IMG/VR virus record: IMGVR_UViG_3300021962_000393
Coordinates: 1 to 31,969 of that record
Length of the DNA: 31,969 nucleotides
Source: a virus
Strand: one strand, 5' to 3'
Shown here: piece after piece, positions 3,517-28,079 of the stretch
How the letters are laid out: every line of letters begins with the position of its first letter
How positions within the stretch are numbered: the stretch's first letter is position 1
Made by a program: the position numbers and the translations under genes
Notes under the pieces: generated by a model
Databases searched by the model: none
What the model was told of the DNA's origin: nothing
The model's input: the letters and a program-made list of their open reading frames with translations, nothing else

Positions 3517-5118
3517 TTACCTCCATACATTTTTTCTTTTTCCTTGGCGATCCAGTTTTTCCATAAATTTTTGGACTTTGCCTTCGGCCCCTTCTTTGTA
3601 TTGCTTTTTCTCCTTGCGCGACAATTCGTATGGTCGACAAGCTAACAAATAGCGTAGCGCGTCAACTGCGTGATCTTCGTCTTTTGTGTCAAGATCTTCA
3701 ATGTTTTGTTGCGAATGGCGCATTAAGGGAATAGTTCTAATCAAATTTTGACAACTTGAAAACATCTTTACCCTTACCTTTCCATCGATAGGATGAGGCA
3801 TCATATAACGACGCATATTTTGCCATCCTGCAATACGTGCATTCTTTGCTCTAGCAACTATAACACCTTGAGCATTATATTGCAATGCAACAGTTGTGCC
3901 GAGACCAGCAACGTTAGAAAATGTAGAAGGGTCGATAACTGTCATTAGTATGTTTTCGGCTTTGCCGTGCTCATCTACTGACATACGCTTAACTAAACGA
4001 GCCTGTTCCGCAGTTGTAAGATTTTTTTGGTAAGCCTCTCGATATATGTACATGGTTCCGTCAGATGGGTCCATTGCGCCCCAAAGACAGCAAAAAGGGT
4101 TGGCCGTACCAAAGTCAATGCCTCGATAGCGTTGCCATTCTTTTGGTATGTTGAAAGGTTCTACTACGTGTATCGACCTATCAAACTCGCCAAAATACTG
4201 GCCGGTAAACGTATCCCAATCCCCAAGTAGCTTTTGCCGGCGTTCTACGTCTGGCAGCATCGACAAGTTCTTGCGATATGTAGGGTCAATAAATGGGTTG
4301 TCCATTACGGTTGACGGAACAAAAGCAACAACAAGGTGGTTGTTGGGGTCGTGGTCTATTTCCAGCTTGGCCAACTCGTCAAGATCTTCTGGCAGCGGAA
4401 CTAAACGTACAATATCCGGGTTTTCAAATCCTTCAGAAACATCATACACAACTGCTTGTTTACCGTAATGTGTAGGTGTTACAAGGCTTTGATAAAGGAA
4501 AGTGTGCCCTCGGTCGCCAGGGTTAGTAGCAAATGCAACGTGCGTTTTAACGCCGGCTTCAGCCATTTTGCGGCTTGTACGCAAACGTCCAGAAATCATC
4601 AACATCTGGTAGGCGGTAAACTGCGTAGCTTCGTCAAATGCAATAAAGTCGTATTCAGCTGACATGAATTGGCTTACGTCTTCGTCGCGCGCGCAGTAAC
4701 CATATTCGATAATCGACCCGTTTTCGTACCACCAGGCTTTCATGTTGTCTACTGACCGCAGTTGAGCTTTGACTTTTAGCTGCGAATAGCGCACTTGAGT
4801 ACGAATAATTAATGAACGCCGTAGTTCTGGCAGCGCGGTACGTATCAACAAACTCCTGTGGCCAGGGTATTTAAGTGACAATTCGTGCGCGTGGTAGGTA
4901 ATTAGCTCTGATTTGCCGCCACCAGCTGCACCGCCATATAACAGCCAGTCAGTTTTATTAAGCAATATGTTGGCCCTCATCTGCCTTTCGTTGCCAACCA
5001 ACGACCAAGCAGACAAGTCCTCCTCTAAAAGCTTTAAGTATTCGTCTTGTTCGTGGCTAGTAAGGGCCGCAAACTCCTCGTCACTAAGTAAAAGCTTCTT
5101 GTCAACGGTTATACTCAT
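3517..5118 (-). CDS. Terminase large subunit (packaging ATPase and nuclease)
   Basis: The 533-aa protein has the two-domain layout of phage packaging motors. In the ATPase domain the Walker A loop is GGAAGGGKS (62-70), Walker B is YDFIAFDEA (156-164), and a coupling motif FATNP lies at 196-200. The C-terminal RNase H-like nuclease begins near GIDFGTANP, whose Asp is the first metal ligand, and ends with HAVDALRYLL (483-492), supplying the last acidic residue. It pumps DNA into the procapsid and cuts the concatemer. It starts with an ATGA overlap on the upstream gene and precedes the zinc-ribbon and portal genes. Family assignment is secure; the packaging mode (headful or cos) cannot be read from this sequence. 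Confidence 0.96.
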   Translation of the reverse strand: MSITVDKKLLLSDEEFAALTSHEQDEYLKLLEEDLSAWSLVGNERQMRANILLNKTDWLLYGGAAGGGKSELITYHAHELSLKYPGHRSLLIRTALPELRRSLIIRTQVRYSQLKVKAQLRSVDNMKAWWYENGSIIEYGYCARDEDVSQFMSAEYDFIAFDEATQFTAYQMLMISGRLRTSRKMAEAGVKTHVAFATNPGDRGHTFLYQSLVTPTHYGKQAVVYDVSEGFENPDIVRLVPLPEDLDELAKLEIDHDPNNHLVVAFVPSTVMDNPFIDPTYRKNLSMLPDVERRQKLLGDWDTFTGQYFGEFDRSIHVVEPFNIPKEWQRYRGIDFGTANPFCCLWGAMDPSDGTMYIYREAYQKNLTTAEQARLVKRMSVDEHGKAENILMTVIDPSTFSNVAGLGTTVALQYNAQGVIVARAKNARIAGWQNMRRYMMPHPIDGKVRVKMFSSCQNLIRTIPLMRHSQQNIEDLDTKDEDHAVDALRYLLACRPYELSRKEKKQYKEGAEGKVQKFMEKLDRQGKRKNVWR

Positions 5119-5666
5119 GAACCCCCATCGCCAGCAACGGCACGTAAACCACCTTCAATACGACGTTTTGCCTCAACCTTTAGCTCCTCAAACCTGTTTT
5201 TGCGCTGATCTGCGTCTTCAATAGGCTGATTACTGGAAATGCTGGTTGGTTCACCCATTTCAAGGCGGAGAATATCATGCCAGATTTTTGCCACTTTAGT
5301 AGCTTCTTCTGCTGATTTCATTTCCCATTCGCCGCCCAATACGCGCAAACCGTGGTCCATGATGATGGCAAGGCCGACTTCGGGCAATTCTTCTCGATTT
5401 AGCTCTTTTGTTACACGGCCCAAGCCCAAGCGTGCAATCTGATCTTGCCGCTTGCGGTATTCGTCTACGGCATCAAGCTCAATAATCTTGCTTGTTATCT
5501 TGCGTTCCGTGCGCCTTTGAATGTTTACGTCATTTGCGGCAGCAGACGATTCCTTGGTAAAGCGCGTGTCTTTAAGAACACGTACGTCTTTCACAACGTC
5601 CTCAATGCTTACAATGTCGCTTTCAACTCTTGCCGGCGTTGGCTGAATCTTTTTCGCTTTTGGCAT
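5115..5666 (-). CDS. Unknown protein upstream of TerL, possible small terminase
   Basis: The 183-aa product is highly charged and mostly helical, with a Lys-rich N-terminus, a basic central part (residues 50-95) and an acidic/basic helical C-terminus ending Gly-rich. Its place immediately before the large terminase, with an ATGA overlap, is where the DNA-recognising small subunit usually lies. I see no clear helix-turn-helix in it, whereas the next gene upstream has one, so either could be the small terminase. AAGGAA before the ATG supports this start even though it overlaps the upstream gene by 58 nt in another frame. Confidence 0.75.
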   Translation of the reverse strand: MPKAKKIQPTPARVESDIVSIEDVVKDVRVLKDTRFTKESSAAANDVNIQRRTERKITSKIIELDAVDEYRKRQDQIARLGLGRVTKELNREELPEVGLAIIMDHGLRVLGGEWEMKSAEEATKVAKIWHDILRLEMGEPTSISSNQPIEDADQRKNRFEELKVEAKRRIEGGLRAVAGDGGS

Positions 5667-5917
5667 TCTTTTTCCTTGCGATAGGGGTCTTCGGTAAACC
5701 AGTCAGAACCCCATAATACACATGGATGTAGCCCGAGTCGGCAAGCGTGCTTGTCAGCATCTACATAACTGAGCTTCTTGCCTCGATGCCATGCTTGGAA
5801 TGTTTGACGTTGTAAACCTAAAAACTCCGCAGCATCGCCGGAATCGTAGTTAAATCTCTCCATTGCGTGTTTATATAACGGTACGGAAGAATAACGCATG
5901 CGCAGCAATAAGGTCAT
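5609..5917 (-). CDS. Helix-turn-helix DNA-binding protein, possible small terminase
   Basis: The 102-aa product contains a compact predicted helix-turn-helix: residues 26-45 (SGDAAEFLGLQRQTFQAWHR) look like a positioning helix, turn and recognition helix, followed by a second helical stretch (SYVDADKHACRLGLHP). The C-terminus is very basic (KRKRFSQRRQE). This fits a small transcription regulator or the DNA-binding part of a small terminase. It starts on an ATGA overlap with the WhiB gene, and its last 19 codons overlap the next gene in another frame. Both frames look like real protein there, so the overlap is probably genuine. Confidence 0.7.
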   Translation of the reverse strand: MTLLLRMRYSSVPLYKHAMERFNYDSGDAAEFLGLQRQTFQAWHRGKKLSYVDADKHACRLGLHPCVLWGSDWFTEDPYRKEKECQKRKRFSQRRQELKATL

Positions 5918-10387: not shown

Positions 10388-10789
10388 TTAGAGATATTTT
10401 GCGACGTTGTTGTATGTGTTGGTGTTCACTGTCTCGTCGTCAGTGAGTTTCAGTATCGCTATGGCGTTTTTAATTTCGACAATTTCGTTGTCGCTTCGGT
10501 GTGGATAGTCCGGCGCTTCGGGTGCTTCGAGTGTTGGGTCGTTCACCGTGTACTCAAAGGTCGCTAGTGCTGGCTCGCTTCTCCACTGGCGGATATTGCA
10601 CTCTTTCAGTGTGAGTTTTTTTGTGCCAATAAGAGAAGGCAGTGCCACATAGAACGCCTTTAAATCTTTTTCGTATTGCTTGCGATCCTTTTGATACTGC
10701 ACTTTTTCCTGCACTCTCAACGCCAGCGCGCCCTCAAGTGCCTTGATGAGTTTCGCCGTTGGGATTTTTACGTTCATTTTGTTATTCAT
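10388..10789 (-). CDS. Unknown protein following the VWA gene
   Basis: The 133-aa product has a basic helical N-terminus (VQEKVQYQKDRKQYEKDLKAF) likely to form a coiled coil, a strand-rich centre, and an acidic C-terminal third (EAPEAPDYPHRSDNEIVEIK) ending in a helix. No family is recognised. The ATG overlaps the VWA stop (ATGA), so it is translated with it and is a candidate partner or substrate of the AAA+/VWA pair. A 27-nt gap separates it from the next gene. Confidence 0.75.
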   Translation of the reverse strand: MNNKMNVKIPTAKLIKALEGALALRVQEKVQYQKDRKQYEKDLKAFYVALPSLIGTKKLTLKECNIRQWRSEPALATFEYTVNDPTLEAPEAPDYPHRSDNEIVEIKNAIAILKLTDDETVNTNTYNNVAKYL

Positions 10790-12264
10790 TTTGTTTTTTC
10801 CTTTGTTGGTTGGTTGGTAATTTTTTCTATTCTGTCGTAGTAAATAATTTCACTCTCAGTGTCTCCACTTGATGACGATATTACACCGTGCGAAGTAGCC
10901 CAGCGTGCCACCGCTCCAAAAAGGCTCGGGGGTGCTTTTCTGCCTTGGCTCCATTCTCGCAGCAGGGCAATGGCGCCCTCGACGGTTGGCACTTGGCGGA
11001 TGCCGTTCTCTATGGCCAGAGTCGCGCAAGCTTCTCTGATGTTCTCGTGACTCGTATCGGTGCAATCGGTAACGTGACCATCACACACCCACACAATAGG
11101 GTCGCTCGGCTTCTTACGGTTTCGCACTGCCCACTCGAGCGCTGGTTCATCTACCCCGTTGGCTTGCCCCATTGTGGGGAAATCAGCGGCAGAGATACAC
11201 GCACCGTCCTTCGCAAGTATCCACGCGTTGGGTTTGCCTGCTCCCGACATAAGGGAATAAGCAATCACGGTGCAACCTGAAGCACTATGCACAATTTCTC
11301 GCACATCCTCACTACTAAGCCCCATAGAACCCGAGCAATCTATTACAACAATGCCGCCAGCGTGACGGGCTACCTTGTCAAATATCCTGCGCTCGGGGTC
11401 GGTGAGCATACGGTGAAGCCTTTTAGGCAGGCGACCACTGGCGCTTGCTCGACGAGTGCGGCTTAGGAAATTACGCCCGTTCTCAGTGAGTTGTGGTGCT
11501 GCGATAATCAGGGGCGCGCTCTGCCCACTCTTAGGAGATGACTTAGATCGAGCCCTCACTCTCTCCAAATAACGCTCGGCGTCTTCTTCGCTCGTTCTCT
11601 GGAAAGAGTCCACAATTAAAGCAATCGGGATAGTGAACTCAACAAACCCCGTAGGGTAAAAATATGACTCACCTTCACTCACGCTCACTCTCTGCGGCAT
11701 AGTGAACCCGATCACTCTTTTATGTTTTCTAATTGTCGCCTTGAGCATTTGCCTGATCTCCTTCATCATTGGGTAACGCTCGAGGAATGCTTTATAGACA
11801 CCATTTTCGGAACCCGTGTTCATTGTGGAGACCATATGACACACGGCTTCATAAAGGTATTCATCCGTACCCCCTGCAATGCTCTTGGCGTGGTTCACTT
11901 CGCTCCCGTCTTTGAGTTGGCGGTAGTCGAAGACTTCACTGCTTTTGAGCACGGTGTTAATCCGCAATTCTTCGGCAACCATTACGGCGTGTTGAGATAC
12001 GCCCCAAGTGTCGAGCACTTCAGGGTGAAGCGTAAAAGGCGAGAGGCGGGCGTGTAGTAGTTCGTGACCTCGCACTGCTTTACTTCGAGCGTCATTGCCT
12101 ACCGGTATAGCCATAGACCTACGCGCAAAGTTCGTATGCGCTGAACCCCTGAGCGCCATTGTCGGAACGGTATCCCAGCACGCCGCAACGGCTTCTCCAC
12201 CCCCTTCACAATGCTTCAGGTCTCGACGGGCCAGCACTGCCCACTCTGGCACTGCGGTAGTCAC
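10786..12264 (-). CDS. HExxH-motif plus VWA-domain protein (CobT-like partner of AAA+)
   Basis: The 492-aa product has two recognisable parts. Near the N-terminus GHELLH (66-71) is an HExxH zincin motif, followed about 30 residues later by AEELRIN (97-103); HE..H followed by an E..RI helix occurs in CobT-like phage proteins that combine a metallopeptidase-like domain with VWA. The C-terminal VWA domain starts at GGIVVIDCSGSMG (303-315), a full DxSxS metal site at D309/S311/S313, and continues with CDGHVTD (394-400). Between them is a basic Ser-rich linker. It starts with GTG in a GTGA overlap with the AAA+ gene. VWA proteins of this kind work with MoxR or CobS-type ATPases in remodelling or metal insertion. 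Whether the HExxH site is active is not known. Confidence 0.88.
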   Translation of the reverse strand: MTTAVPEWAVLARRDLKHCEGGGEAVAACWDTVPTMALRGSAHTNFARRSMAIPVGNDARSKAVRGHELLHARLSPFTLHPEVLDTWGVSQHAVMVAEELRINTVLKSSEVFDYRQLKDGSEVNHAKSIAGGTDEYLYEAVCHMVSTMNTGSENGVYKAFLERYPMMKEIRQMLKATIRKHKRVIGFTMPQRVSVSEGESYFYPTGFVEFTIPIALIVDSFQRTSEEDAERYLERVRARSKSSPKSGQSAPLIIAAPQLTENGRNFLSRTRRASASGRLPKRLHRMLTDPERRIFDKVARHAGGIVVIDCSGSMGLSSEDVREIVHSASGCTVIAYSLMSGAGKPNAWILAKDGACISAADFPTMGQANGVDEPALEWAVRNRKKPSDPIVWVCDGHVTDCTDTSHENIREACATLAIENGIRQVPTVEGAIALLREWSQGRKAPPSLFGAVARWATSHGVISSSSGDTESEIIYYDRIEKITNQPTKEKTK

Positions 12265-12980
12265 GACGCCACCAACTCATTGACTTCAGCAGCTTCGATA
12301 ATTTCCTCAAAACGAGTAGGGAAAATAAGCCTTGCGCTGATCTCCACACTATGAGTTTTGCGAGCCTGCTGATATGCAAAGAACGAGCGCAGAGACACCT
12401 TGTTGCGAGGGTCTGAAATCCACAAATCGGCAATAGCGGCTAAATGCGTATCGTTTAATTCCGCAAGTGCTTCAGGATGGGGGCGGTTTATGTTAATGCG
12501 CACGGGGAAACGGTCTAGCAACGCAGGCGGCAAATCGGCAAGCCTTGTAGCGTTGGTGGTAGCGATTACCTGAAATCCTGCTCGGGGGCTAATCATTACT
12601 TTTTTAGCAGGGTGGGGGATAACAGCACTTGCACTGCTGTCACAAATTGCCAGCAAATTGGTAAGGCACTCGCCGCTCGCTTGGTCTAATTCGTCGAGCA
12701 CAAGGCGGCTCCCGTTAGTCCACGCGTCAAGACATACGCTGTCAATCCACTCCCACTCACCGGCGTTAGGTTTCCACATTCCCTCTACGTCACCCTTGGT
12801 CATATCGCTAGTGCAAAGAAGGCGCAAGGCTTCCCGTAGCGGTGCTACAGGGGTTGGCAACCCTTTGTTTAAGCAGTAATAAGTTTTTCCCGTGCCTGGC
12901 TGTCCGTAAAGCAAAATGCGGTCTAAGTCTGCCGCTAGTGCATTGTCGAGGTCTTGCCAGCATTGTGGGTATTCGTTCAT
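12261..12980 (-). CDS. MoxR/CobS-like AAA+ ATPase
   Basis: The 239-aa protein is a single compact AAA+ module. Walker A is GQPGTGKT (26-33), Walker B LVLDEL (93-98), sensor 1 is TTN (141-143) and the putative arginine finger lies in LLDRFPV (154-160). A short insertion before Walker B (VEGMWKPNAGEWEWIDS) corresponds to the insert of MoxR-family proteins. Such ATPases form rings and act with VWA partners, here encoded directly downstream with a 4-nt overlap. The family includes CobS-like proteins of cyanophages, but no cobalamin genes are present, so no role in cobalt insertion is claimed. AAAGGAG precedes the ATG and a predicted promoter lies about 45 nt upstream. Confidence 0.93.
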   Translation of the reverse strand: MNEYPQCWQDLDNALAADLDRILLYGQPGTGKTYYCLNKGLPTPVAPLREALRLLCTSDMTKGDVEGMWKPNAGEWEWIDSVCLDAWTNGSRLVLDELDQASGECLTNLLAICDSSASAVIPHPAKKVMISPRAGFQVIATTNATRLADLPPALLDRFPVRININRPHPEALAELNDTHLAAIADLWISDPRNKVSLRSFFAYQQARKTHSVEISARLIFPTRFEEIIEAAEVNELVAS

Positions 12981-13076: not shown

Positions 13077-13370
13077 ATGGAAAACGTGCTGAGCCAATTA
13101 CACGACATACTCGACGAATTAAACCAATACGCCCCACCACCTGCAAGGCCTAAAGGGCTGAATATACCAATAGAAGCCACTGGCAAATGGGTAGCCGCTG
13201 CGGTTGGTGGTGGCAATTATTCTTTACAGGCGGTCTACACCTACGGCGAGACAACGGTGCGAGCAGAACCCGTGCGAGAATTAACAGGGAGACCGTCGAT
13301 ATTGCTTGGCGCGTTGCGGTTCTCAGTGAACCTTGCCCGCGCTGCTTCGTATGAGTGGATCAGGGTCTAG
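13077..13370 (+). CDS. Small plus-strand protein, unknown function
   Basis: The 97-aa product has a helical acidic N-terminus (MENVLSQLHDILDELNQY), a Pro-rich hinge and a strand-rich remainder (KWVAAAVGGGNYSLQAVYTY, then ETTVRAEPVRE) suggesting a small beta domain. It is one of only two genes on the plus strand and diverges from the AAA+/VWA operon. It seems to be read from a leaderless message (see the promoter at 13039-13069). Divergent placement suggests a regulator or early gene, but no DNA-binding motif is evident. Confidence 0.7.
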   Translation: MENVLSQLHDILDELNQYAPPPARPKGLNIPIEATGKWVAAAVGGGNYSLQAVYTYGETTVRAEPVRELTGRPSILLGALRFSVNLARAASYEWIRV

Positions 13371-13456: not shown

Positions 13457-13735
13457 ATGTTTGAGGTCAAAGACCCCCCACATCAACACACCAACGCAGA
13501 GAACATGCCACCCAAACTAAAACATTTTTTTGTTTTTCTTGCTGCTAATGAAGGGCAATGGTGCAAGTACCACGCATACGTAAACAAGCAATCGGGCTGG
13601 CAACGCGCTATGACGGCTAATCGCAAATATGGCGCGCTAGGCTACCAATTCACATCACGCACTGAGGACGGCAAAGCAGTGGTGTACGGCAGAAAAATTC
13701 TTACCGGAATAGAAGCATTACACAGAACTACGTGA
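13457..13735 (+). CDS. Small winged-helix-like protein of actinophage type
   Basis: The 92-aa product carries the pattern L..NEGQW.K........SGWQRAMTANRKYGALGYQF.SRTEDGKAVVYGRK. This resembles a family of small actinophage and actinobacterial proteins with a short helix-turn-helix followed by a beta hairpin with DG and VY, probably a winged helix. Its function is not established; DNA binding is plausible. GGAG lies 5 nt before the ATG, its own promoter is predicted at 13391-13420, and it is followed by a strong terminator. Confidence 0.75.
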   Translation: MFEVKDPPHQHTNAENMPPKLKHFFVFLAANEGQWCKYHAYVNKQSGWQRAMTANRKYGALGYQFTSRTEDGKAVVYGRKILTGIEALHRTT

Positions 13736-13762: not shown

Positions 13763-13797
13763 AAAGGCCCGAGTCTGTAGGGGACTCGGGCCTTTTT
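13763..13797 (+). terminator. Strong rho-independent terminator after the plus-strand genes
   Basis: A perfect 13-bp stem (AAAGGCCCGAGTC 13763-13775 and GACTCGGGCCTTT 13783-13795) with a 7-nt loop is followed by a T-run ending at 13797. It ends the rightward transcript. On the minus strand the same stem is followed by TTTAAAA, so it could also stop leftward transcription arriving from 13856. Confidence 0.9.
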
Positions 13798-13816: not shown

Positions 13817-13857
13817 GCCGGTTGTCTAGTCCCCTCCTTGCTAGGCAACCGGCTTTT
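13817..13857. terminator. Second hairpin between converging genes
   Basis: GCCGGTTG (13817-13824) pairs perfectly with CAACCGGC (13846-13853), and the stem continues through one T-G wobble and CTAG/CTAG for 13 pairs around an 11-nt loop. TTTT follows on the plus strand (13854-13857), overlapping the stop codon of the leftward gene. With the preceding hairpin it insulates the two converging units. Direction is ambiguous, but the T-run favours the plus strand. Confidence 0.7.
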
Positions 13858-14476
13858 ATGCGTCTTCGGGGCCTACAACCTCATCGAAAACTGGTTCATC
13901 ACGCTCGGGATACCAATACCTAGTGTTGACCTTGTACTTGGGGCGCTCACCCCATTTAGGTATGTTGATCGTGAAACTGGAATCAACGACAAGCATTCTA
14001 TTACCCGGCAACGCAACCAAATGACCGCAATCCAACCAACAAAAATTGAAATGCTTGTGTTGATCCGGGGTTCTAGAATACATGTCGTCGTAAGGTGCAG
14101 CAGTGAACCAATACCTGCCAGACACCCACTCGCCTGCCACATAACACCGCGCCGGTAACTCACGCAAAGCGTCGTATTCATGGGTCGAGAATGTGTGCCC
14201 ATAGCACGACCACACTTGCAGGTCGTTAATAGCGTGACAGCACTCAAGAATAGGGTCAAGGTGTTGGGTAAAAGCTGTTACGGGCAAGTTCTGCACTAAA
14301 GCACCATTGTCCAACAACGCCGACACACCCCAAGCCCTGCCAGGCAATGCAGTAACGCCAAACAATAAAGCGCTGGTATAAACACCTGTTTGTTGTGGGT
14401 CACTAAAGTCGTGCAGAAACGTGTTGTGCACGTAGCCGTACATTGGCCTGGGTATGTCAGCGATGTGGTCAGCCAT
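13856..14476 (-). CDS. Unknown protein, last gene of the leftward middle operon
   Basis: The product from the ATG at 14476 is 206 aa, rich in aromatic residues, His and Cys, with alternating strand-like segments (GVYTSALLFGVTALPG, HLVALPGNRMLVVDSSF). It looks like a globular soluble domain, but no family is recognised. The frame is open ten codons upstream; the ATG at 14476 is chosen because it forms the 8-nt overlap ATGGCTGA with the upstream stop, the arrangement used repeatedly in this genome. It is followed by two hairpin terminators. Confidence 0.75.
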   Translation of the reverse strand: MADHIADIPRPMYGYVHNTFLHDFSDPQQTGVYTSALLFGVTALPGRAWGVSALLDNGALVQNLPVTAFTQHLDPILECCHAINDLQVWSCYGHTFSTHEYDALRELPARCYVAGEWVSGRYWFTAAPYDDMYSRTPDQHKHFNFCWLDCGHLVALPGNRMLVVDSSFTINIPKWGERPKYKVNTRYWYPERDEPVFDEVVGPEDA

Positions 14477-14654
14477 GGTTGTGTACCAAATTAATATGGG
14501 AATCAACTAATTCGTCGGAAACAGGCGCTCCCATAGTTTCTTCTAGCCACAATTCGGCAAAATGGTATGCCCTCTTACGCCATTTCATTGCTTCTTTTTC
14601 CCATGCTATTGCATGAGCCTCAGCACCGGCAAAAAAGCTTTCTTTGTGTTCCAT
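14469..14654 (-). CDS. Small helical protein, unknown function
   Basis: The 61-aa product is a charged, Trp- and Ala-rich helix (FFAGAEAHAIAWEKEAMKWR) with an acidic end. AAGGGG lies 5 nt before the ATG at 14654; a GTG one codon earlier, in a GTGA overlap with the RecT-like gene, is an alternative start. It links the RecT-like gene with the next gene by overlaps on both sides. No family is recognised. Confidence 0.65.
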   Translation of the reverse strand: MEHKESFFAGAEAHAIAWEKEAMKWRKRAYHFAELWLEETMGAPVSDELVDSHINLVHNHG

Positions 14655-20399: not shown

Positions 20400-20775
20400 C
20401 TGGCACTCGTTCCTTAAGAGGTATTATTGTCAATTGTAACCCAGCCTGCTTGCCCAAAATAGGACGCTTAAACGTGATGGTCGGCAAAATATCTGGGGTA
20501 TCGTCATCGAGGATGCCAGCGTCAACCAGGCCGTCAATGGCAGCTTTGGCAGATGGGAAGCAAGCGGCGGTATCTTGCCAGCGCCGGTTTTCCAGTATTG
20601 GCTGCACGATAATTTCGGCAGCAACTAAGTGTGGCAAACCAGCTTGTATTGCCGCTTGATAGAAGCCTTCGCGCCACCATTTAGTATCGTTAACCCGCGC
20701 CCTAAAGTGCTGACTGCGCTCTTGGTTCAGGCTTACAGGTCTTTTCCCCATCAGCGACAGCAGGAAGCAATCCAT
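20392..20775 (-). CDS. RusA-like Holliday junction resolvase
   Basis: The 127-aa product has the RusA-type acidic pattern: WQDTAACFPSAKAAIDGLVD with D68, K77 and D81, followed by AGILDDD (86-92) and a strand (ILPTITFKRP). In RusA these Asp residues hold the metal for cutting Holliday junctions. Such enzymes clear branched DNA before packaging. The ATG overlaps the stop of the giant gene in TAATG, supporting this start; a second ATG at codon 10 is an alternative. It is unusual to find it among virion-type genes. The family call is from the pattern alone. Confidence 0.7.
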   Translation of the reverse strand: MDCFLLSLMGKRPVSLNQERSQHFRARVNDTKWWREGFYQAAIQAGLPHLVAAEIIVQPILENRRWQDTAACFPSAKAAIDGLVDAGILDDDTPDILPTITFKRPILGKQAGLQLTIIPLKERVPGE

Positions 20776-23700
20776 TACCTGTCCCGCTGTGCGTTTATGT
20801 AAGCGCGTGTGCGTTCCTGGGCCAAGCGCTCGCGTTCTTCAATTGCATCTTGGCTCTGCGATGCAGGCGTACCTGGGATTGTTAGCAAACGGGCAAGAGC
20901 AACCAAACGGCCACCATACTTCGGTGTCATATCCTGGCGGCCAGGTATCAGTCGAGGGCCGCCTGTATCGTACCTTTGGTATGGGCCAAGCTGCGTACCG
21001 GTAAGAGGGAGCCTTGTAGTCGGGGCAATGTCCATCAATTTTGGTATCAATGGGAACTGCTGTGCGGCGTAGGACGCGAACTGCCCTGGGTGGCGGATGG
21101 CAAAAGCGAGGTCGTTTGCAGAAACAGAACCAAATTTGTTTGGTATACCTTCTCCGCTTTGCCTGCTCAATGGGGTCATCGAGCTCAAGTTCAAACCAGT
21201 AGCTCCGGCAAACAACATTCTTGGCATTGGGGATGCCATACCAAGAACCCTGGACAAGTCAGGTGACCATGCACCAGTCGTCCCTCGTTCGGTCAAGCCA
21301 CCAATGAGGTCTGCTGTGTCTGCAAAAGGGTTAGCAAAGTTAGTGCTTGTGATACCTGCGCCCGGGAGCCTTAAGTTACCAGCTAACAAACCTAATGGGT
21401 CTGTGTCTGGGTCGTAGGCCAGTTGCCCTAAGTACATTTGCCAGATAATTGCTTTTGGATTTTCTTTTGCAATCTTTATGAACAACTTGTTGATGTGCTT
21501 TATCCAAGCATAAAACGTAGCGTGAGGAAGAACGTACTTACGTTCCCACGGAGACAAGTCGTTCCAGTCACCCATGACTTCGTTAGCCGTGTCGAGAGTG
21601 TCTTCCCATGCTTTTGCAATGTCTTGATGCACCAGTTGTTCTTCAACCGAGGAGAATGATTGACGAGGGTTGTATTTGTCAAGTCCAAGGCTAGTAACAT
21701 CATCGACTGTGTATTTTGTGTTGTGCATTTTATTGAGTTTGTTTAACGCTTGCTCAAGTTTGGCCATAAAATAAGCTTGGCGGCCAACGTTGTTGATTGC
21801 GTCGTTGACCATGTATGCGCGTTCTTTGTACCAGCGAGCACCAGCTTTTACTTTGCCCAATACCGGCAATTTATCGACTTTACTTACATCTTCTGACCCA
21901 GGAGTAGTAGTGCTTAAGCGTTGTTTTTCTTCAACTCGTAGACCTACGTTCTGCAAGCCGGAGCTAGAAAGCTTTTTACCCTGCTGGTTGACTCGACGCT
22001 CAGCTTCTTTTTTGAACGCATCGCGCCAACCGCCGCCGTAGTTGTTCTTGAAAGCAACGTTCATTTCTTCAGCAAGAGCTAGAGGGTTGACGCCAGTAGC
22101 AGCAGCACTTACAAACATGCCGATAATGTCACCAATTTGCCACTGAACCGACAAGGGTAAGGTGAAGTCTTTAAAAATGCTGGTGGTTTTCTTTGTCGCT
22201 GACAAATATTTGTTAAGAACCTCTACCGCTATGTCTGGGTTGATGTAGCTAGTTCTGTTAATTACTTGTTCGCGAGCATACTTTGGCAAATAAGGGCGCT
22301 TGCCGTCGATAACATCAAACCTAACCGTTCCGCGAATGTCGCCTTTTATTGGCAAGGTTTCAAACCCGCGGATCTTCATTTCTGCATCAAGCATTTGCCC
22401 AAAAAATTCTGCAGTTTTTCGAGCAAGGTTTGCATCCCTGTTGAATACGCCTTCAGCGTAAGCCGCAATGCCGCCTTCAATTCCCCCCTCCATGCTGGCT
22501 GGCAGCATGAGAGCTTGTTTTTCTGCAAGCGCATACAGTTCTCTTACCCGCTCTTCTCCAATCATTTGCTCTGGCGTGACTGCAACCTTCGTCAGCATCA
22601 AAGCACGGAACGTTTCGTTTGAATCCATCAACAATTGTTCTGCCGACAAACGACGCGCAAGAATACGGAAATCGTATATTTCTTCAACGTTGCCAGGCTT
22701 AAAATATTCGCTAGGCAATTTGAGGAATCCTGCAGTAGCGCCTTGCTCGGTCTCGTAGGTAAGCGGTGATGTTTTACCGGAAGGTTTGCCAGAAGGAAGA
22801 TAGCCAGGGCCTATTTGGCCAAACTCGTCAGCGCCCATTGCCAAAGCAACTATCAATGGCATTGACGGTGGCATAGACGCGCCACGCATGATCAAGGCTT
22901 CATTGGCAGCAGCTTGCACAATGTCTGCTTGTGCCTTAATAGAAGTAGCTTCAGGCACGTTGTAATTGTCGGGGCTTAACGACATAGCGGCGTTATCGGC
23001 TGGAGTGGCAAAATCAGCTGGACCTGTTGTGGCTAGAGGTTCGCGACGAACAACCTGCTCGATTGGGCGCAATACTCCACCCACCGCATTGCCTGCCATA
23101 CGGGGCACTTGACCTGGTTTTGGTGGCTGCCCTACGGTGGCTGCTCCAGTTTCTCCAGCCGTCAACATGCGGCCAGTAGGTTGCCCGTCTGGTCCCGCAG
23201 CGCGCACTTCTGGTTGCGTAATCATTTGCGTACCGAGCAATGCTTCGCGTGTTGCAATCTCGGGAGTTATTTGTGAAAGTTTGGCTCGCTCTGCTGCTTC
23301 CTTGACGCGCAATTCATCTATTTGCGCAGCCTTGGTGTCCATACCAGCTTTAAGCTTTATGTTGGTTTCTTCTAGCTTTGACAACCTTGCTTCGGCAGCC
23401 AACAAAGCTGGCGGCTTTGGCATAGTAGAAGGACCAGGGCCTAACTCGCGGCTTGGCTTAATGTTTACCCAACCTTCAGGCTGGATGGTGGGCACAAACG
23501 TTGCATCTTCGGCAGCAAGCTTTGCAATGTAGGTGCGTGCGGCAGCTTTAGTGCCAAAGACTTGGCGTGTTGATTCAATAGGTGCACCATCGCTAGCAAT
23601 GCGACGTACAACATAACGGTACTTCTGACGGTCGCGGCCAGTTGTTTTAGAAACCGGTGTGCGACCTGCATCTTCTGAACTAATGCCGTATTTACGTACA

Positions 23701-26700
23701 CCAGTGTCAAAAGTTTCTAAGCCATTTTCGTATTTGTAATTGTCGGAGTCAAGCGCTTCATCACCAGTTTTTACAGGGGCAGATAGCTGGCCTTCTGTTG
23801 GCTGAATCGGAGTGTTGGTAGCGTCGGCAACAGGGTCAATAGGTTGCTCAATTTGCGACAATCCAGGCTGTGATGCTTCCGCGACAATAGTATCCGTTAC
23901 TTGCGATAACAATGCCGTTGGTGGTGCGGTTTCTGCGGGGGCTACAGAAGTAACGTTTTCAGGCGCAAATTCAGCCATAAATTCGTTATAGAACTCCATG
24001 AAAGTTTGTTGAATTTCAGCTTTGGTGCGTTCAAAATCTCGCACCGAATATGTGCCGCCCTTTAATTTATAATCATAATCGTCTTTTAGTTTGCTATTAA
24101 ACAATTTATCTTTAAACTTATTTAAATTATCAATTGCTTGTTGCAGCGTTATGTTTTTGTCAAAGTGAATGTCCCACATTGGAAATTCGCCAGTTTCGGG
24201 GTTGCGGGCATCTGGCAGTTCGTTTAGGGTTTCGTCAAAACGTGCTATAGTTCTTTCCCAGAAAGTGTTCCAGTGAGCAGTAAATGAATTCGTGTACTCC
24301 CTCATATATACGTTGCCAACAATAGGTTTTTCCTGCGGCATAACATGTTGCGGCAAATCAGTTCTATTAGCAAACTTCTCTATAAATTTAGGGAATGCTT
24401 TTGTAATTGGTTCGGTTTTGGGTACGGCAACTGGCGTCGTTTTAGGTTTAGCTCCTGGTCTCTCTCTTGGTAATGCCTTCTTGGGAAATGCGGGTTCAGC
24501 AGCAGCAGTTTGCTCGGGTGGAGACAATCTGGCTTGCTGTTGTTGAGCGTCGGCGTTCAACTGAGCTTCGTCAAGCGCAGCTTTAGCAGCGAGTTGATCT
24601 TGCAAAGCAGTATCTCGCAAATTTAGGTTTGTTTCTAAGTCGTTTTGCAATTTTGTTATTTTTTTAAGTTTTGCAGCAGTAGGTGGCTTAGCCGCTGGTG
24701 CTGCCTTGGTAGTTTTTGCTTCCTTTACTGTCCAGCCGTCTGGACCAAATTCAGTTGCGTCATAAATTGCGTTGGCAGCGCGGGCAAGGTTGAACCTGTC
24801 TTTTGGTGAACCTGAATCCTCGAGCAATCCAGCTACACCTCTTGCTTGGTCAGCAAAGGTGTATGGATCAAGAAAATCTTTTAGCTGCATAGCAACGCCA
24901 ACTATTTCGCCGTTTTCTCTTACAACAAGCATTTTGGCATCTTTGCCAGATTCTAATTTCTTGACAGCAATTTGCATTGTGCGTCCTGGCGCCAACAGCG
25001 CATCAAGACTATTTGCATCTATTTCAATACGAACGTCGTTTGCATCTTTTATCAACACACGTTTTTGAGTGTATAATTTTGGTTTCTTATTTTTAGGAGT
25101 TGGGGCATCACGAACGGTACGTACGTCACTAGAAACAATTTGCGCAAAAGGAGCTTTTTTAGAAAACTTTTCTGCGTCCTTTAATATTGATTCTCCGTTT
25201 GCTGGAGCTTTGTTTACATCAAATTTGCCTGATTTTAGTCCACCAGAACTTGCAGCTTGCGAATAATAGATACCATCTTCGTCGCCTAGTTCTGCAATTT
25301 TTTTCCTAAACCATGAATCTTCTGGCAGAACGGTCATAATATAACCATTTGTGTACCACATTTTTCCCTTAGCTTTAAGTATTATTGCTCCACGGTTTTC
25401 CCCCCGTGTTGCCAATAAACCACCTTCTCCTTTCTTGCTAAGAAGTTTGTCAATAGCGGCAGTAACAAATTTTACCGCTACTGGCGGAACGTACGGCGCG
25501 TTCTCAAGCAGATCAAGAATCATTGCTCTTCTGCCAGGTGGCAAATTAGCCAAATCACCCGTAGGGTCTGCAATTGTTTTTTTGATTGATTCGGGGGTAA
25601 TAGCCGGTCCACCACCGGCAACAGCTGGCCCCGCCTCGGGGATTGGTGGTGTCAATGCCGCAAGTTTACCTTCAATTTCTGCAACTTTTTCGTCGTAAAT
25701 CTCAAGGTCGGCAGTAATAACATCGTATTCTTCTTGAAGCACTTCAAGTTGTTGTTGTAAATCAACGGCAACCTGTGACTCAGGGAATTTAGCGCGATCA
25801 GCTTCTACGGCTTTCTCGATAGCTAGTGAGTCACCACCTTCGCGGTCAAGCTGCTCGCCAGTTGCAACAGCCTCATCTTCTAGAGCATCTAATTCATCAA
25901 TAAGCTCATCAGCCGCAGCCTCAAGACCTACCGTATCGTCATTCAAACTTTCTAATGCTGTATTTTCTGCTTCAAGTTCAGCCGCAAGTTGTTCTTCTGT
26001 GTAAATTTTGCCTTCGCGCACAATCGAATCAGCTTGGTCAGCTTTCATTTTTTCGTATAGCGCCGTCAGTTTTGCTACTTTTGCACGTTGCAATAAAATT
26101 CTGGCTTCGTTATTTTGCAATTTAAGTTGCAACTGAAGGCCAATGCGTTCTTTGTCTGCAATTTTGAGAATAATGTTGGCAAGTTTTGTAGCAACTCTTT
26201 TTTGCGTGCCGCGCAATCTGTCAAGTTGCGTCATAGTATTCTGTATGTACTGGACAGGGAACTTAGCTAATGTGCCTGGTTCTTTAACTTCAGTCAACGA
26301 TTCCGGCGTAGGCAAACCGCTGTTAGGGTCAAAAGAACCTGGCTTTGGTGGGGCGCTGCCGACACCGCTTCCGTCCGCAGGTGGTGTGCCGCCAACCATA
26401 CGTGCGGCTTCAGTATTTAGAGCATGACGTACGCGCTTGTAGAAGACAATGTTGCCACGCATTGCTGGCGGGTAGATGGATTCGTTAAGGGCAACTGCGT
26501 CAGGAGCGTGCTCGATGACCCATTTTAAGAATGCTATGCGCGTCGGGTCTTTAGGGTTTTCGCTTAATCGAAAGCCACCTGCTTCCGGCATGTCTGCCAT
26601 AGCTCTAGCCATGACTTCGGCAAGTGGGTGACCAATCTTTTCTAATTCGGCAAGCAGCAAAGCTGGGTCTGGCGTTGGTACATCGTAAGCAGCCGGCAAT

Positions 26701-28079
26701 GGTTCAGCACGACCGTAACCAGCTCTTGCCTGATCGCTAAAGTTTCCCATGGCGATACGCAGTCTGTCGGCAGCATCGGCAAGGCGAGCATATTGTTGTG
26801 GCGACATGGTGGGGTTTGCATCCGTGTGGTTAACAAAATCTGCAGCTAATCTGGCACCTTCAGGTAGTAGAGAGTACCCTTCGTCAAAATTGTAACGACC
26901 CATGTGCGCAATTGTTTCAACAGGTAAACCCGTTATTTCTGCAATTTTTTGTATTTCTTGAGCGCGCCCGCTGTACGTAGAAATAACTGCTTGCTGTTCA
27001 AGGTCAGATAAAGAACCCCAATTTTCGCCTGGCTTGTTAGGGTTTGGTTCGTCTTTAAACAAAGGGTTGTCAAGAATGCCAAGCATTGTGTTAATAATTT
27101 CAGTATTGTTTTTGCTTGCATTAAACACTGCTCGTTTGGCAAACCTGTTAACAAAACCAGGTTCAATAATAATTTTCTTACCATTAGCGTCAATAAATTC
27201 ACGGCCAGAAAAACGTTCCCACGTATTAGCTTTGTTAAATTTAGTCCTAGCCGCTGCACTATTTGGGTCTGCATTGTATAAAGCAGTTCCTTCGGCCCGT
27301 AACGTAGCGGCATAATTTCGGCCATACTGTGTACCCATGCGGCCAACTTTGCCAGCTGCTTTGAACGGAAGGGTAATTGGCAATGCGCCAAACTTGTCAG
27401 CCAGTACTCCTGCGCGCGTTATTGTTTCCGCTGCAGAACCTAAAGCAACCCCACGAGCGGTACCAGCCGCAGCCCCCCGAGCAGCTCTGCCCAAACCAGC
27501 GCCGACACCATGTAAAGCAATTGAAATGTTCCCTGCATCTTCAACCATTTTTGGCAACAACGATTCACCACGGGCTAGAGTATTGCGATAGCTATTAGAG
27601 TCGTCTTTTGAAAAAGATACCTGTCCAAATGAAGTAACCTCAAGAGCAGACTTACCTGTACTGATGAGGCTGTCCATCATTTCTCCGCCAAATTCAGAGA
27701 AAGCTAAACCGACAACCGGTAACCCTTGAATCCCGCGCAATAAACTTTTAGGACTAAACCGCCCAGCAGCTTCTGCTTCTTCTCGGCTAATACGCTCCGT
27801 CGGCATTGAAACTTCTTTTACAAATTTTCCCAATCCGGCAGGAGCTGCTTTCAGCAAAGCGGTACCGGCAGTTGGTGTTTGCGCCAAAGACGAATAAACA
27901 TCCGACATACTAATTTCTTTGTCAGCGTCAGTCTTTTTCTTTTTTTCTTTATTGACTTCAGTGGCAGTTACGGGTTTGCCGTTCCGCACTACGGGTATTG
28001 GTTTTAGCCTTGGTCCTGGTTTTGGTGGCTTAACAGGAGTTGGCGAACTGCCCGGCATCGGAAAAACAAAATCAGCCAT
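20775..28079 (-). CDS. Giant probable ejection/internal virion protein (2434 aa)
   Basis: This single open frame covers 7.3 kb. Visible in order: a Pro/Lys-rich N-terminus (1-55); an Ala/Gly-rich, partly hydrophobic region near 190-222; a long coiled coil at about 603-815 (TMTQLDRLRGTQKRVATKLA to EGKLAAL); a globular region near 840-1100; low-complexity Ala/Pro/Lys/Gln linkers at about 1130-1270; a small basic domain near 1480-1530 (KYRYVVRRIASDG); and a large C-terminal helical domain from about 1900 containing TSIFKDFTLPLSVQWQIGDI and an aromatic, membrane-like YVLPHATFYAWIKHINKLFI. Such size and modularity match ejected proteins of podoviruses and multi-domain polyvalent proteins. No transglycosylase, protease or polymerase motif was found by eye. 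AAGGAG precedes the ATG. Confidence 0.8.
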   Translation of the reverse strand: MADFVFPMPGSSPTPVKPPKPGPRLKPIPVVRNGKPVTATEVNKEKKKKTDADKEISMSDVYSSLAQTPTAGTALLKAAPAGLGKFVKEVSMPTERISREEAEAAGRFSPKSLLRGIQGLPVVGLAFSEFGGEMMDSLISTGKSALEVTSFGQVSFSKDDSNSYRNTLARGESLLPKMVEDAGNISIALHGVGAGLGRAARGAAAGTARGVALGSAAETITRAGVLADKFGALPITLPFKAAGKVGRMGTQYGRNYAATLRAEGTALYNADPNSAAARTKFNKANTWERFSGREFIDANGKKIIIEPGFVNRFAKRAVFNASKNNTEIINTMLGILDNPLFKDEPNPNKPGENWGSLSDLEQQAVISTYSGRAQEIQKIAEITGLPVETIAHMGRYNFDEGYSLLPEGARLAADFVNHTDANPTMSPQQYARLADAADRLRIAMGNFSDQARAGYGRAEPLPAAYDVPTPDPALLLAELEKIGHPLAEVMARAMADMPEAGGFRLSENPKDPTRIAFLKWVIEHAPDAVALNESIYPPAMRGNIVFYKRVRHALNTEAARMVGGTPPADGSGVGSAPPKPGSFDPNSGLPTPESLTEVKEPGTLAKFPVQYIQNTMTQLDRLRGTQKRVATKLANIILKIADKERIGLQLQLKLQNNEARILLQRAKVAKLTALYEKMKADQADSIVREGKIYTEEQLAAELEAENTALESLNDDTVGLEAAADELIDELDALEDEAVATGEQLDREGGDSLAIEKAVEADRAKFPESQVAVDLQQQLEVLQEEYDVITADLEIYDEKVAEIEGKLAALTPPIPEAGPAVAGGGPAITPESIKKTIADPTGDLANLPPGRRAMILDLLENAPYVPPVAVKFVTAAIDKLLSKKGEGGLLATRGENRGAIILKAKGKMWYTNGYIMTVLPEDSWFRKKIAELGDEDGIYYSQAASSGGLKSGKFDVNKAPANGESILKDAEKFSKKAPFAQIVSSDVRTVRDAPTPKNKKPKLYTQKRVLIKDANDVRIEIDANSLDALLAPGRTMQIAVKKLESGKDAKMLVVRENGEIVGVAMQLKDFLDPYTFADQARGVAGLLEDSGSPKDRFNLARAANAIYDATEFGPDGWTVKEAKTTKAAPAAKPPTAAKLKKITKLQNDLETNLNLRDTALQDQLAAKAALDEAQLNADAQQQQARLSPPEQTAAAEPAFPKKALPRERPGAKPKTTPVAVPKTEPITKAFPKFIEKFANRTDLPQHVMPQEKPIVGNVYMREYTNSFTAHWNTFWERTIARFDETLNELPDARNPETGEFPMWDIHFDKNITLQQAIDNLNKFKDKLFNSKLKDDYDYKLKGGTYSVRDFERTKAEIQQTFMEFYNEFMAEFAPENVTSVAPAETAPPTALLSQVTDTIVAEASQPGLSQIEQPIDPVADATNTPIQPTEGQLSAPVKTGDEALDSDNYKYENGLETFDTGVRKYGISSEDAGRTPVSKTTGRDRQKYRYVVRRIASDGAPIESTRQVFGTKAAARTYIAKLAAEDATFVPTIQPEGWVNIKPSRELGPGPSTMPKPPALLAAEARLSKLEETNIKLKAGMDTKAAQIDELRVKEAAERAKLSQITPEIATREALLGTQMITQPEVRAAGPDGQPTGRMLTAGETGAATVGQPPKPGQVPRMAGNAVGGVLRPIEQVVRREPLATTGPADFATPADNAAMSLSPDNYNVPEATSIKAQADIVQAAANEALIMRGASMPPSMPLIVALAMGADEFGQIGPGYLPSGKPSGKTSPLTYETEQGATAGFLKLPSEYFKPGNVEEIYDFRILARRLSAEQLLMDSNETFRALMLTKVAVTPEQMIGEERVRELYALAEKQALMLPASMEGGIEGGIAAYAEGVFNRDANLARKTAEFFGQMLDAEMKIRGFETLPIKGDIRGTVRFDVIDGKRPYLPKYAREQVINRTSYINPDIAVEVLNKYLSATKKTTSIFKDFTLPLSVQWQIGDIIGMFVSAAATGVNPLALAEEMNVAFKNNYGGGWRDAFKKEAERRVNQQGKKLSSSGLQNVGLRVEEKQRLSTTTPGSEDVSKVDKLPVLGKVKAGARWYKERAYMVNDAINNVGRQAYFMAKLEQALNKLNKMHNTKYTVDDVTSLGLDKYNPRQSFSSVEEQLVHQDIAKAWEDTLDTANEVMGDWNDLSPWERKYVLPHATFYAWIKHINKLFIKIAKENPKAIIWQMYLGQLAYDPDTDPLGLLAGNLRLPGAGITSTNFANPFADTADLIGGLTERGTTGAWSPDLSRVLGMASPMPRMLFAGATGLNLSSMTPLSRQSGEGIPNKFGSVSANDLAFAIRHPGQFASYAAQQFPLIPKLMDIAPTTRLPLTGTQLGPYQRYDTGGPRLIPGRQDMTPKYGGRLVALARLLTIPGTPASQSQDAIEERERLAQERTRAYINAQRDR

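Follow-up and report, generated by a model that had tools for sequence, protein, structure and literature searches.

A Phage Family Pairing a MoxR-Type ATPase with a Putative Zincin-VWA Protein, and Its Chromosomal Branch beside lexA

The virus record IMGVR_UViG_3300021962_000393 of IMG/VR, whose 31,969 bases constitute the window analysed here, carries two overlapping genes encoding a minimal AAA+ ATPase of the MoxR/CobS-like kind and a protein that combines a putative N-terminal zincin-like domain with a C-terminal VWA domain. These genes belong to a widespread phage family in which they are adjacent wherever the contig allows, and the VWA protein has kept its HExxH motif in nearly all relatives. 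How would such an ATPase work with a partner that resembles an adaptor and a peptidase at once? Because the adaptor has a conserved peptidase-type site of its own, the simplest explanation is that the pair forms an ATP-driven machine for remodelling and limited proteolysis, acting most likely on a protein that serves DNA replication, recombination or the response to damage; we give this reading a probability of about one half. A MoxR-type AAA+ ring, presumably hexameric, would work with the VWA protein as its partner or adaptor, the VWA domain with its metal ion-dependent adhesion site (MIDAS) would grip either the ring or the substrate, and the N-terminal domain, with the motifs HExxH...EExR, would be a small metallopeptidase of zincin type. 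ATP hydrolysis would then pull or re-shape the target protein, in which the zincin domain would probably make a limited cut. We infer that a ring forms, that metal is bound, that proteolysis occurs and what class of protein is targeted; the assignment to DNA metabolism, which is the least certain step, follows from the genes that surround the pair in several phage lineages, and from one chromosomal association beside lexA.

Single-sequence scans of IMG/VR gave just one relative, so that alignments were required: a two-member alignment brought 26 ATPase loci, and a 21-member alignment found the VWA protein in 80 viral loci kept of the 164 found, plus five genome contigs. The VWA gene adjoins the AAA gene in 25 of the 26 loci retrieved with the AAA profile, the exception (L018) being at a contig end. 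An AAA gene is likewise adjacent in 81 of the 85 loci retrieved with the VWA profile, and the other four (L030, L032, L091, and L092) are cut loci, among which L032 still shows an AAA gene 4 nucleotides (nt) away. The initial annotation of the window, made from its letters alone, had proposed a two-part machine and made this idea depend on co-conservation; searched from either gene, the two proteins co-occur near-perfectly, and a search for loss of the association found the pair still coupled in relatives. The gene models of that annotation are equally sound, since both open reading frames (ORFs) were recovered in place on the minus strand with the ATPase gene overlapping the HExxH-VWA gene by 4 nt, an overlap or near-abutment that most relatives retain.

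Conservation in the VWA protein was evaluated with 66 relatives below 85% identity, among which the N-terminal domain has a median pairwise identity of 37%. H67, E68, and H71 of the HExxH motif are each present in 65 of these proteins, as are E99 and R101 of the following motif, and E98 is present in 64. The occurrence of HExxH is more than chance, because its expected count is 0.03 for a protein of this composition and because it is conserved in relatives. The protease idea had been tied to this conservation, and looking for its failure produced a single loss, L012, in which the whole HExxH/EExR set is gone while the ATPase and the VWA motif are kept. Two VWA proteins within AAA-VWA pairs are devoid of HExxH, namely those at 983-2335 of L012 and 5725-7455 of L170, the latter having a quite different N-terminal part; they constitute natural candidates for peptidase-less machines. 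In the VWA domain, D309, S311, S313, N369, D372, and D395 are invariant in all 66 proteins, with the sequence GGNGVD around N369 in most of them. The canonical pattern DxSxS...T...D is nevertheless incomplete: DxSxS and the late Asp are invariant, but the usual Thr is Asn369 throughout, so that the MIDAS is a variant site. Hence the GHELLH, AEELRIN, and DCSGS motifs originally read in this protein are confirmed, with their key residues conserved, whereas its description as having a complete VWA metal site has to be qualified. No Pfam family matches the protein, and sequence searches of Pfam, NCBIfam, and PDB gave no family covering its relatives, one of 21 members having a VWA_CoxE match at 3e-4; tblastn against 50,697 phage records returned no match.

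The ATPase matches Pfam AAA_5 above the cut-off and was correctly read as minimal and MoxR/CobS-like, possessing Walker A, Walker B, sensor 1, and a probable arginine finger (table 1), motifs that are mostly invariant across 21 relatives at 37-44% identity. Its closest solved structures by profile are midasin, NorQ, and CbbQ. Against the same phage records, tblastn gave weak matches to the CobS proteins of cyanophages and pelagiphages and to nothing else. A defence-type ATPase was considered and rejected, the weak ATPase-core matches to IetA and TRIP13 given by PADLOC being judged generic AAA similarity.

Structure prediction gave a confident AlphaFold2 model for the isolated N-terminal domain, which was run with an alignment of 65 sequences (table 1). 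HExxH falls on the helix of residues 59-74, and EELRIN on another long one further along the chain (91-109), the Glu of the third ligand being assigned by position in a model that contains no metal. Of the 17 PDB matches listed by VIA-align for the domain, 12 are zincins, including MATCAP, PprI, ArdC, selecase, abylysin, jannalysin, and 3c37, all of them weak with Z scores of 2-3. The predicted domain is consistent with a minimal zincin, which is not proof of one. The full-length model of the VWA protein has a moderate predicted local distance difference test score (pLDDT) of 74, and VIA-align recovers in it a clear VWA fold. The original suggestion of a two-part remodelling machine, possibly with protease activity, gains from the co-occurrence of the genes in its first part, and in its second part from the conservation of HExxH and the predicted zincin-like fold, which leave proteolysis a plausible activity.

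What could the target of the pair be? The window has genes for RecT, an exonuclease, SSB, and a RusA-like protein, those for RecT and SSB being near the pair. A like pair lies between recombination genes (46/47, of gp46 type where named) and the genes for the sliding clamp and its loader in the Prochlorococcus phage P-HM1, the Synechococcus phage Sf-FS3, and the Ochrobactrum phage OC; in the Pelagibacter phage HTVC008M it is placed before the clamp and loader genes. The more constant neighbours of the pair in relatives are a small gene immediately preceding the ATPase, which belongs to either of two families (c8 and c14), and replication genes lying further downstream (for a replication initiation protein and a helicase-loader-like protein). 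The small genes following the pair in the window had been thought to encode adaptors or substrates, a role that we rejected on neighbourhood for the two that were followed: homologues of the 133-amino acid (aa) gene occur in 8 of 66 loci when the window is counted, and those of the 164-aa gene in 21 of 66, at scattered places and on both strands, uncoupled from the pair. L036 is the only other locus in which the 133-aa homologue adjoins the pair. Both resemble accessory genes of the ordinary sort rather than components of the machine.

The family extends to bacterial chromosomes. It was found in 4 of 296 actinobacterial genomes searched, and its AAA gene was present in 47 when 120 genomes of one actinobacterial family were sampled, on contigs of up to 1.2 Mb. 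Among 44 loci fetched around AAA matches, 41 are of chromosomal type (L168-L170 are not), and all 41 have the VWA partner with both HExxH and EExRxN. The genes for AAA, VWA, a LysM protein, NrdR, a PIG-L deacetylase, and DinB are co-directional and in the same order in the 36 loci reaching far enough, with NrdR and PIG-L detected in 36 and DinB and LysM in 35; Pfam confirms LexA, NrdR, PIG-L, and DinB, and the LysM label comes from reading a sequence that has no Pfam match. The lexA gene adjoins the pair in 13 loci, in divergent orientation, and a perfect SOS box precedes the AAA gene in 11 of them. In L163, L198, L202, L203, L207, L213, L218, L221, and L222, lexA is instead found some 5.7-6.2 kb ahead of the pair. 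The row of LysM, nrdR, PIG-L, and dinB genes is intact in 15 relatives that do not have the pair, and lexA directly faces this row in the 14 of them with enough sequence; hence the pair has been inserted at one spot, between lexA and the row, which is empty in those relatives. The five genome contigs found first (L029-L033) carry none of the lexA-locus genes. In the loci inspected, two perfect SOS boxes (CGAAC-N4-GTTCG) stand just after the VWA gene and before the LysM gene, spaced about 24 nt apart in L206, L220, L166, and others; the LysM-like protein presumably resembles the SOS division inhibitor found next to lexA in actinobacteria. In the tree of concatenated ATPase and VWA proteins the chromosomal clade is monophyletic (support 0.998); the window forms a long branch that is sister to it (0.95-0.97). 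One contig, G622:C30, contains two ATPase copies with identical scores (5003-5686 and 48862-49545), perhaps a repeat or an assembly duplication. A limited and incomplete search of the literature found no mention of the lexA-linked chromosomal pair. With this branch, deleting the genes in a bacterium could reveal their function, independently of an uncultured phage.

Several points weigh against reading the pair as a remodelling and limited-proteolysis machine of DNA metabolism. The row of LysM, nrdR, PIG-L, and dinB genes also occurs in relatives that do not have the pair. Probably the chromosomal locus stems from one insertion that a single clade has inherited, and consequently its SOS neighbours amount to one association instead of many. 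No perfect SOS box precedes the AAA gene where lexA is not adjacent; since the perfect ones are confined to lexA-adjacent loci, they may serve lexA alone, and we have discarded them as evidence for LexA control of the AAA gene. Phage early regions, moreover, contain many unrelated genes. On the structural side, Foldseek found no PDB match at E ≤ 0.001 with either the whole VWA protein or its N-terminal domain, and the resemblance of the modelled domain to zincins is weak. Cutting may also be dispensable, given that the AAA-VWA pair persists in L012 and L170 although HExxH is missing. Metal binding, peptidase activity, and ATPase activity are all predictions from sequences and models.

The most familiar alternative comes from vitamin B12. 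CobS is now taken as a core or auxiliary metabolic gene in cyanophages and other phages, and together with its neighbour, called either "peptidase" or CobT, is read in terms of B12 synthesis. In the published account, such viral pairs are named CobST, cyanophage CobT is said to be misannotated as peptidase, and the pair is proposed to raise the host supply of B12 (PMC8651126). The shared arrangement of AAA and VWA proteins fits an auxiliary cobaltochelatase pair of this kind, as does the pre-VWA signature of the window family, which hhalign aligns with CobT (P 1e-4 to 7e-4, the former with a probability of 55%). Yet we consider this reading very improbable for the window, in agreement with the initial annotation, which expected a target other than cobalamin. 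In all five full-length cellular CobT proteins examined, four of which have an annotated cobS beside or near their gene, HD replaces HE and there is no HExxH, whereas HExxH followed by E-D-x-R is present in all eight cyanophage and pelagiphage "peptidases" and in one CobT-like protein of an Ochrobactrum phage. The window family has no match to the Pfam models CobT (PF06213) and CobT_C (PF11775), which recognise Sinorhizobium meliloti CobT at 4e-97 and 7e-112; its AAA profile retrieves phage CobS and misses all four cellular CobS proteins tried; and neither CobN nor other corrin genes were seen among the genes scanned in the window, itself a fragment. The N-terminal profiles of the window family and the cyanophage peptidase align exactly at both motifs, with P 2e-4 and a moderate probability of 46%. 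Judging from these profile alignments at the N-terminal motifs and the pre-VWA segment, the window family, the cyanophage peptidase, and CobT are probably distant relatives, and CobT is perhaps the member that lost the HExxH site. The cyanophage and pelagiphage "peptidase" gene, with HEVGH and EDxR kept, was located at 1110-3464 of L114, 1338-3563 of L115, and 1408-3573 of L116, and also in L130-L134; it corresponds to T4-like GC 146 in P-HM1 and S-PM2, and its HEVGH conflicts with the published renaming as CobT. The HExxH of the phage partner, missing from the CobT proteins examined, renders the B12 reading doubtful in a way that point mutants could test.

Could the pair serve the virion instead? 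Iyer et al. (2021; PMC7824862) proposed a role in virion assembly for the same architecture, which they reported from jumbo phages of group 2.2 as MoxR-vWA pairs whose vWA protein has a metallopeptidase at its N-terminus, and the p618-p892 pair of the archaeal virus ATV, which has no peptidase, is an experimentally studied viral MoxR-VWA case with a tail role inferred from experiments (PMC4124505). An assembly chaperone and maturation protease, folding or cutting head or tail proteins late in infection, seems rather unlikely to us all the same: the pair is found among replication and recombination genes, not structural genes, in T4-like relatives, it is close to RecT and SSB in the window, and one bacterial family maintains its chromosomal branch, in the surroundings of which there are no virion genes. 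Equally, HExxH...EExR might be a structural or regulatory metal site in a pair that only remodels, similarly to RavA-ViaA, NorQD, and CbbQO; the best-studied MoxR-VWA pairs are, to our knowledge, peptidase-less, and the diverged pairs of L012 and L170 have no HExxH. We regard this chaperone function as unlikely because a structural site would not need the catalytic-type Glu, which is as conserved as both His. A protease for host takeover or counter-defence, cutting a host repressor or a defence protein, would suit the small accessory genes around the pair and the structural matches to zincins of PprI/IrrE type and ArdC, which belong to conflict or damage response; it is improbable for a single-copy chromosomal pair maintained in a bacterial family, and PADLOC has no defence-system family matching the VWA protein. 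Returning to remodelling with limited proteolysis in DNA metabolism, a bolder version would make the pair an unrecognised ATP-driven metalloprotease system of DNA replication or damage response that moves between phages and actinobacterial hosts and became fixed, in one actinobacterial family, between lexA and the SOS-controlled gene next to it, partly under LexA control; this is possible, though we advance it tentatively. If true, the "peptidase" and "CobS" core genes of cyanophages would be the same kind of machine, not vitamin B12 genes.

The window itself is that of a phage: scans with Pfam and PHROG identified genes for portal, large terminase, WhiB, SSB, RecT, exonuclease, and RusA-like proteins, all on the minus strand, and the WhiB gene indicates that the host is probably an actinobacterium. 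The features of the pair are collected in table 1. A scan for promoters and terminators in the window gave results at chance level. The largest gene (20775-28079, minus strand) encodes a 2434-aa protein with neither PHROG nor Pfam match, and a 216-aa protein (13856-14506, minus strand) matches phrog_3704 ("ferredoxin") at 6e-26 and no Pfam family. The interval separating the ATPase gene from the next gene on the minus strand holds two small plus-strand ORFs (13077-13370 and 13457-13735), which run opposite to the other genes and are followed on their strand by a terminator-like stem of 14 pairs with a T-rich tail (13763-13795); ORFs and stem are possibly a real divergent unit.

Table 1. Features of the ATPase and VWA genes in the window (residues refer to the encoded protein; rmsd, root mean square deviation; pTM, predicted template modelling score)
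Feature	Positions	Strand	Basis
MoxR/CobS-like AAA+ ATPase, 239 aa, minimal (core and lid), ATG start	12261..12980	-	Pfam AAA_5 3.1e-14; phrog_16448 2.4e-34
Walker A GQPGTGKT, residues 26-33	12882..12905	-	Sequence and alignment of relatives
Walker B RLVLDE, residues 92-97	12690..12707	-	Sequence and alignment of relatives
Sensor 1 TTN, N143	12552..12560	-	Sequence and alignment of relatives
DRF (D156-R157-F158), probable arginine finger	12507..12515	-	Invariant in 21 relatives
SLR (S196-L197-R198), probable sensor 2	12387..12395	-	Invariant in 21 relatives
Overlap of 4 nt, GTGA: ATPase stop and GTG start of VWA gene	12261..12264	-	ORF positions
VWA protein, 492 aa, GTG start: N-terminal zincin-like and C-terminal VWA domain	10786..12264	-	phrog_33218 2.7e-42 (unknown function)
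N-terminal zincin-like domain (predicted), residues 28-222	11599..12183	-	AlphaFold2 pLDDT 90.6, pTM 0.88
HELLH, residues 67-71	12052..12066	-	HExxH in 65/66 non-redundant relatives
EELRIN, residues 98-103, probable third metal ligand (Glu)	11956..11973	-	64-65/66 relatives
Pre-VWA signature GxxPxRxxRMLTDPERRIFD, residues 277-296	11377..11436	-	Near-invariant; aligns with same place in cellular CobT
VWA domain, residues 298-444	10933..11373	-	Z 9.0, rmsd 3.1 over 132 residues to CMG2 VWA domain (8fzu)
MIDAS DCSGS, residues 309-313	11326..11340	-	D, S, S in 66/66
N369-G-V-D372, Asn at usual MIDAS Thr position	11149..11160	-	N, D in 66/66
D395-G396, late MIDAS Asp	11077..11082	-	66/66

In comparison with known systems, the window pair shares a MoxR-class ATPase and a partner or domain with MIDAS/VWA with ATV p618-p892, RavA-ViaA, NorQ-NorD, CbbQ-CbbO, and midasin. 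We know of no zincin domain in the partner of any of these. HExxH and VWA are combined in one protein by DUF2201 (PF13203-PF09967), a predicted metallopeptidase with VWA, as seen in L120; the window family has no PF13203 match, however, and the EExR motif was not seen in L120, the one HExxH-VWA locus among four weak ones that a PF13203 search found in genomes of the phylum of genome G002, too few for a profile. Cellular CobS-CobT has an AAA protein, a C-terminal VWA domain (DNSGSM), a similar pre-VWA segment, and, in the N-terminal domain of CobT, an H...H...P...E..R pattern shared with the window family, from which CobT differs by HD with altered spacing in place of HExxH and by the absence of Pfam cross-matches. 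Also similar is the peptidase-CobS pair of cyanophages and pelagiphages, which has HExxH as HEVGH, EDxR(I/V), DWSGSM in the VWA domain, and an adjoining AAA partner (phrog_249 is its CobS, and the Ochrobactrum phage CobT-like protein matches the peptidase phrog_459); unlike in the window, the peptidase gene precedes that of the ATPase, the ATPase is longer, and the MIDAS has Thr. The pairs of Iyer et al. (2021), compared here through their published description, have adjacent AAA+ and vWA genes as in the window, and an N-terminal metallopeptidase domain like the one predicted for the window pair. The window family differs in being present also in smaller phages, whose WhiB genes point to Actinobacteria, and in possessing a minimal ATPase, a VWA protein with no Pfam match, Asn where the MIDAS usually has Thr, and a chromosomal branch next to lexA. 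Since these jumbo-phage pairs and ATV p618-p892 precede it, the arrangement is of a known kind; what goes beyond it is the contrast between HExxH and CobT, together with the branch that is linked to lexA in the chromosome.

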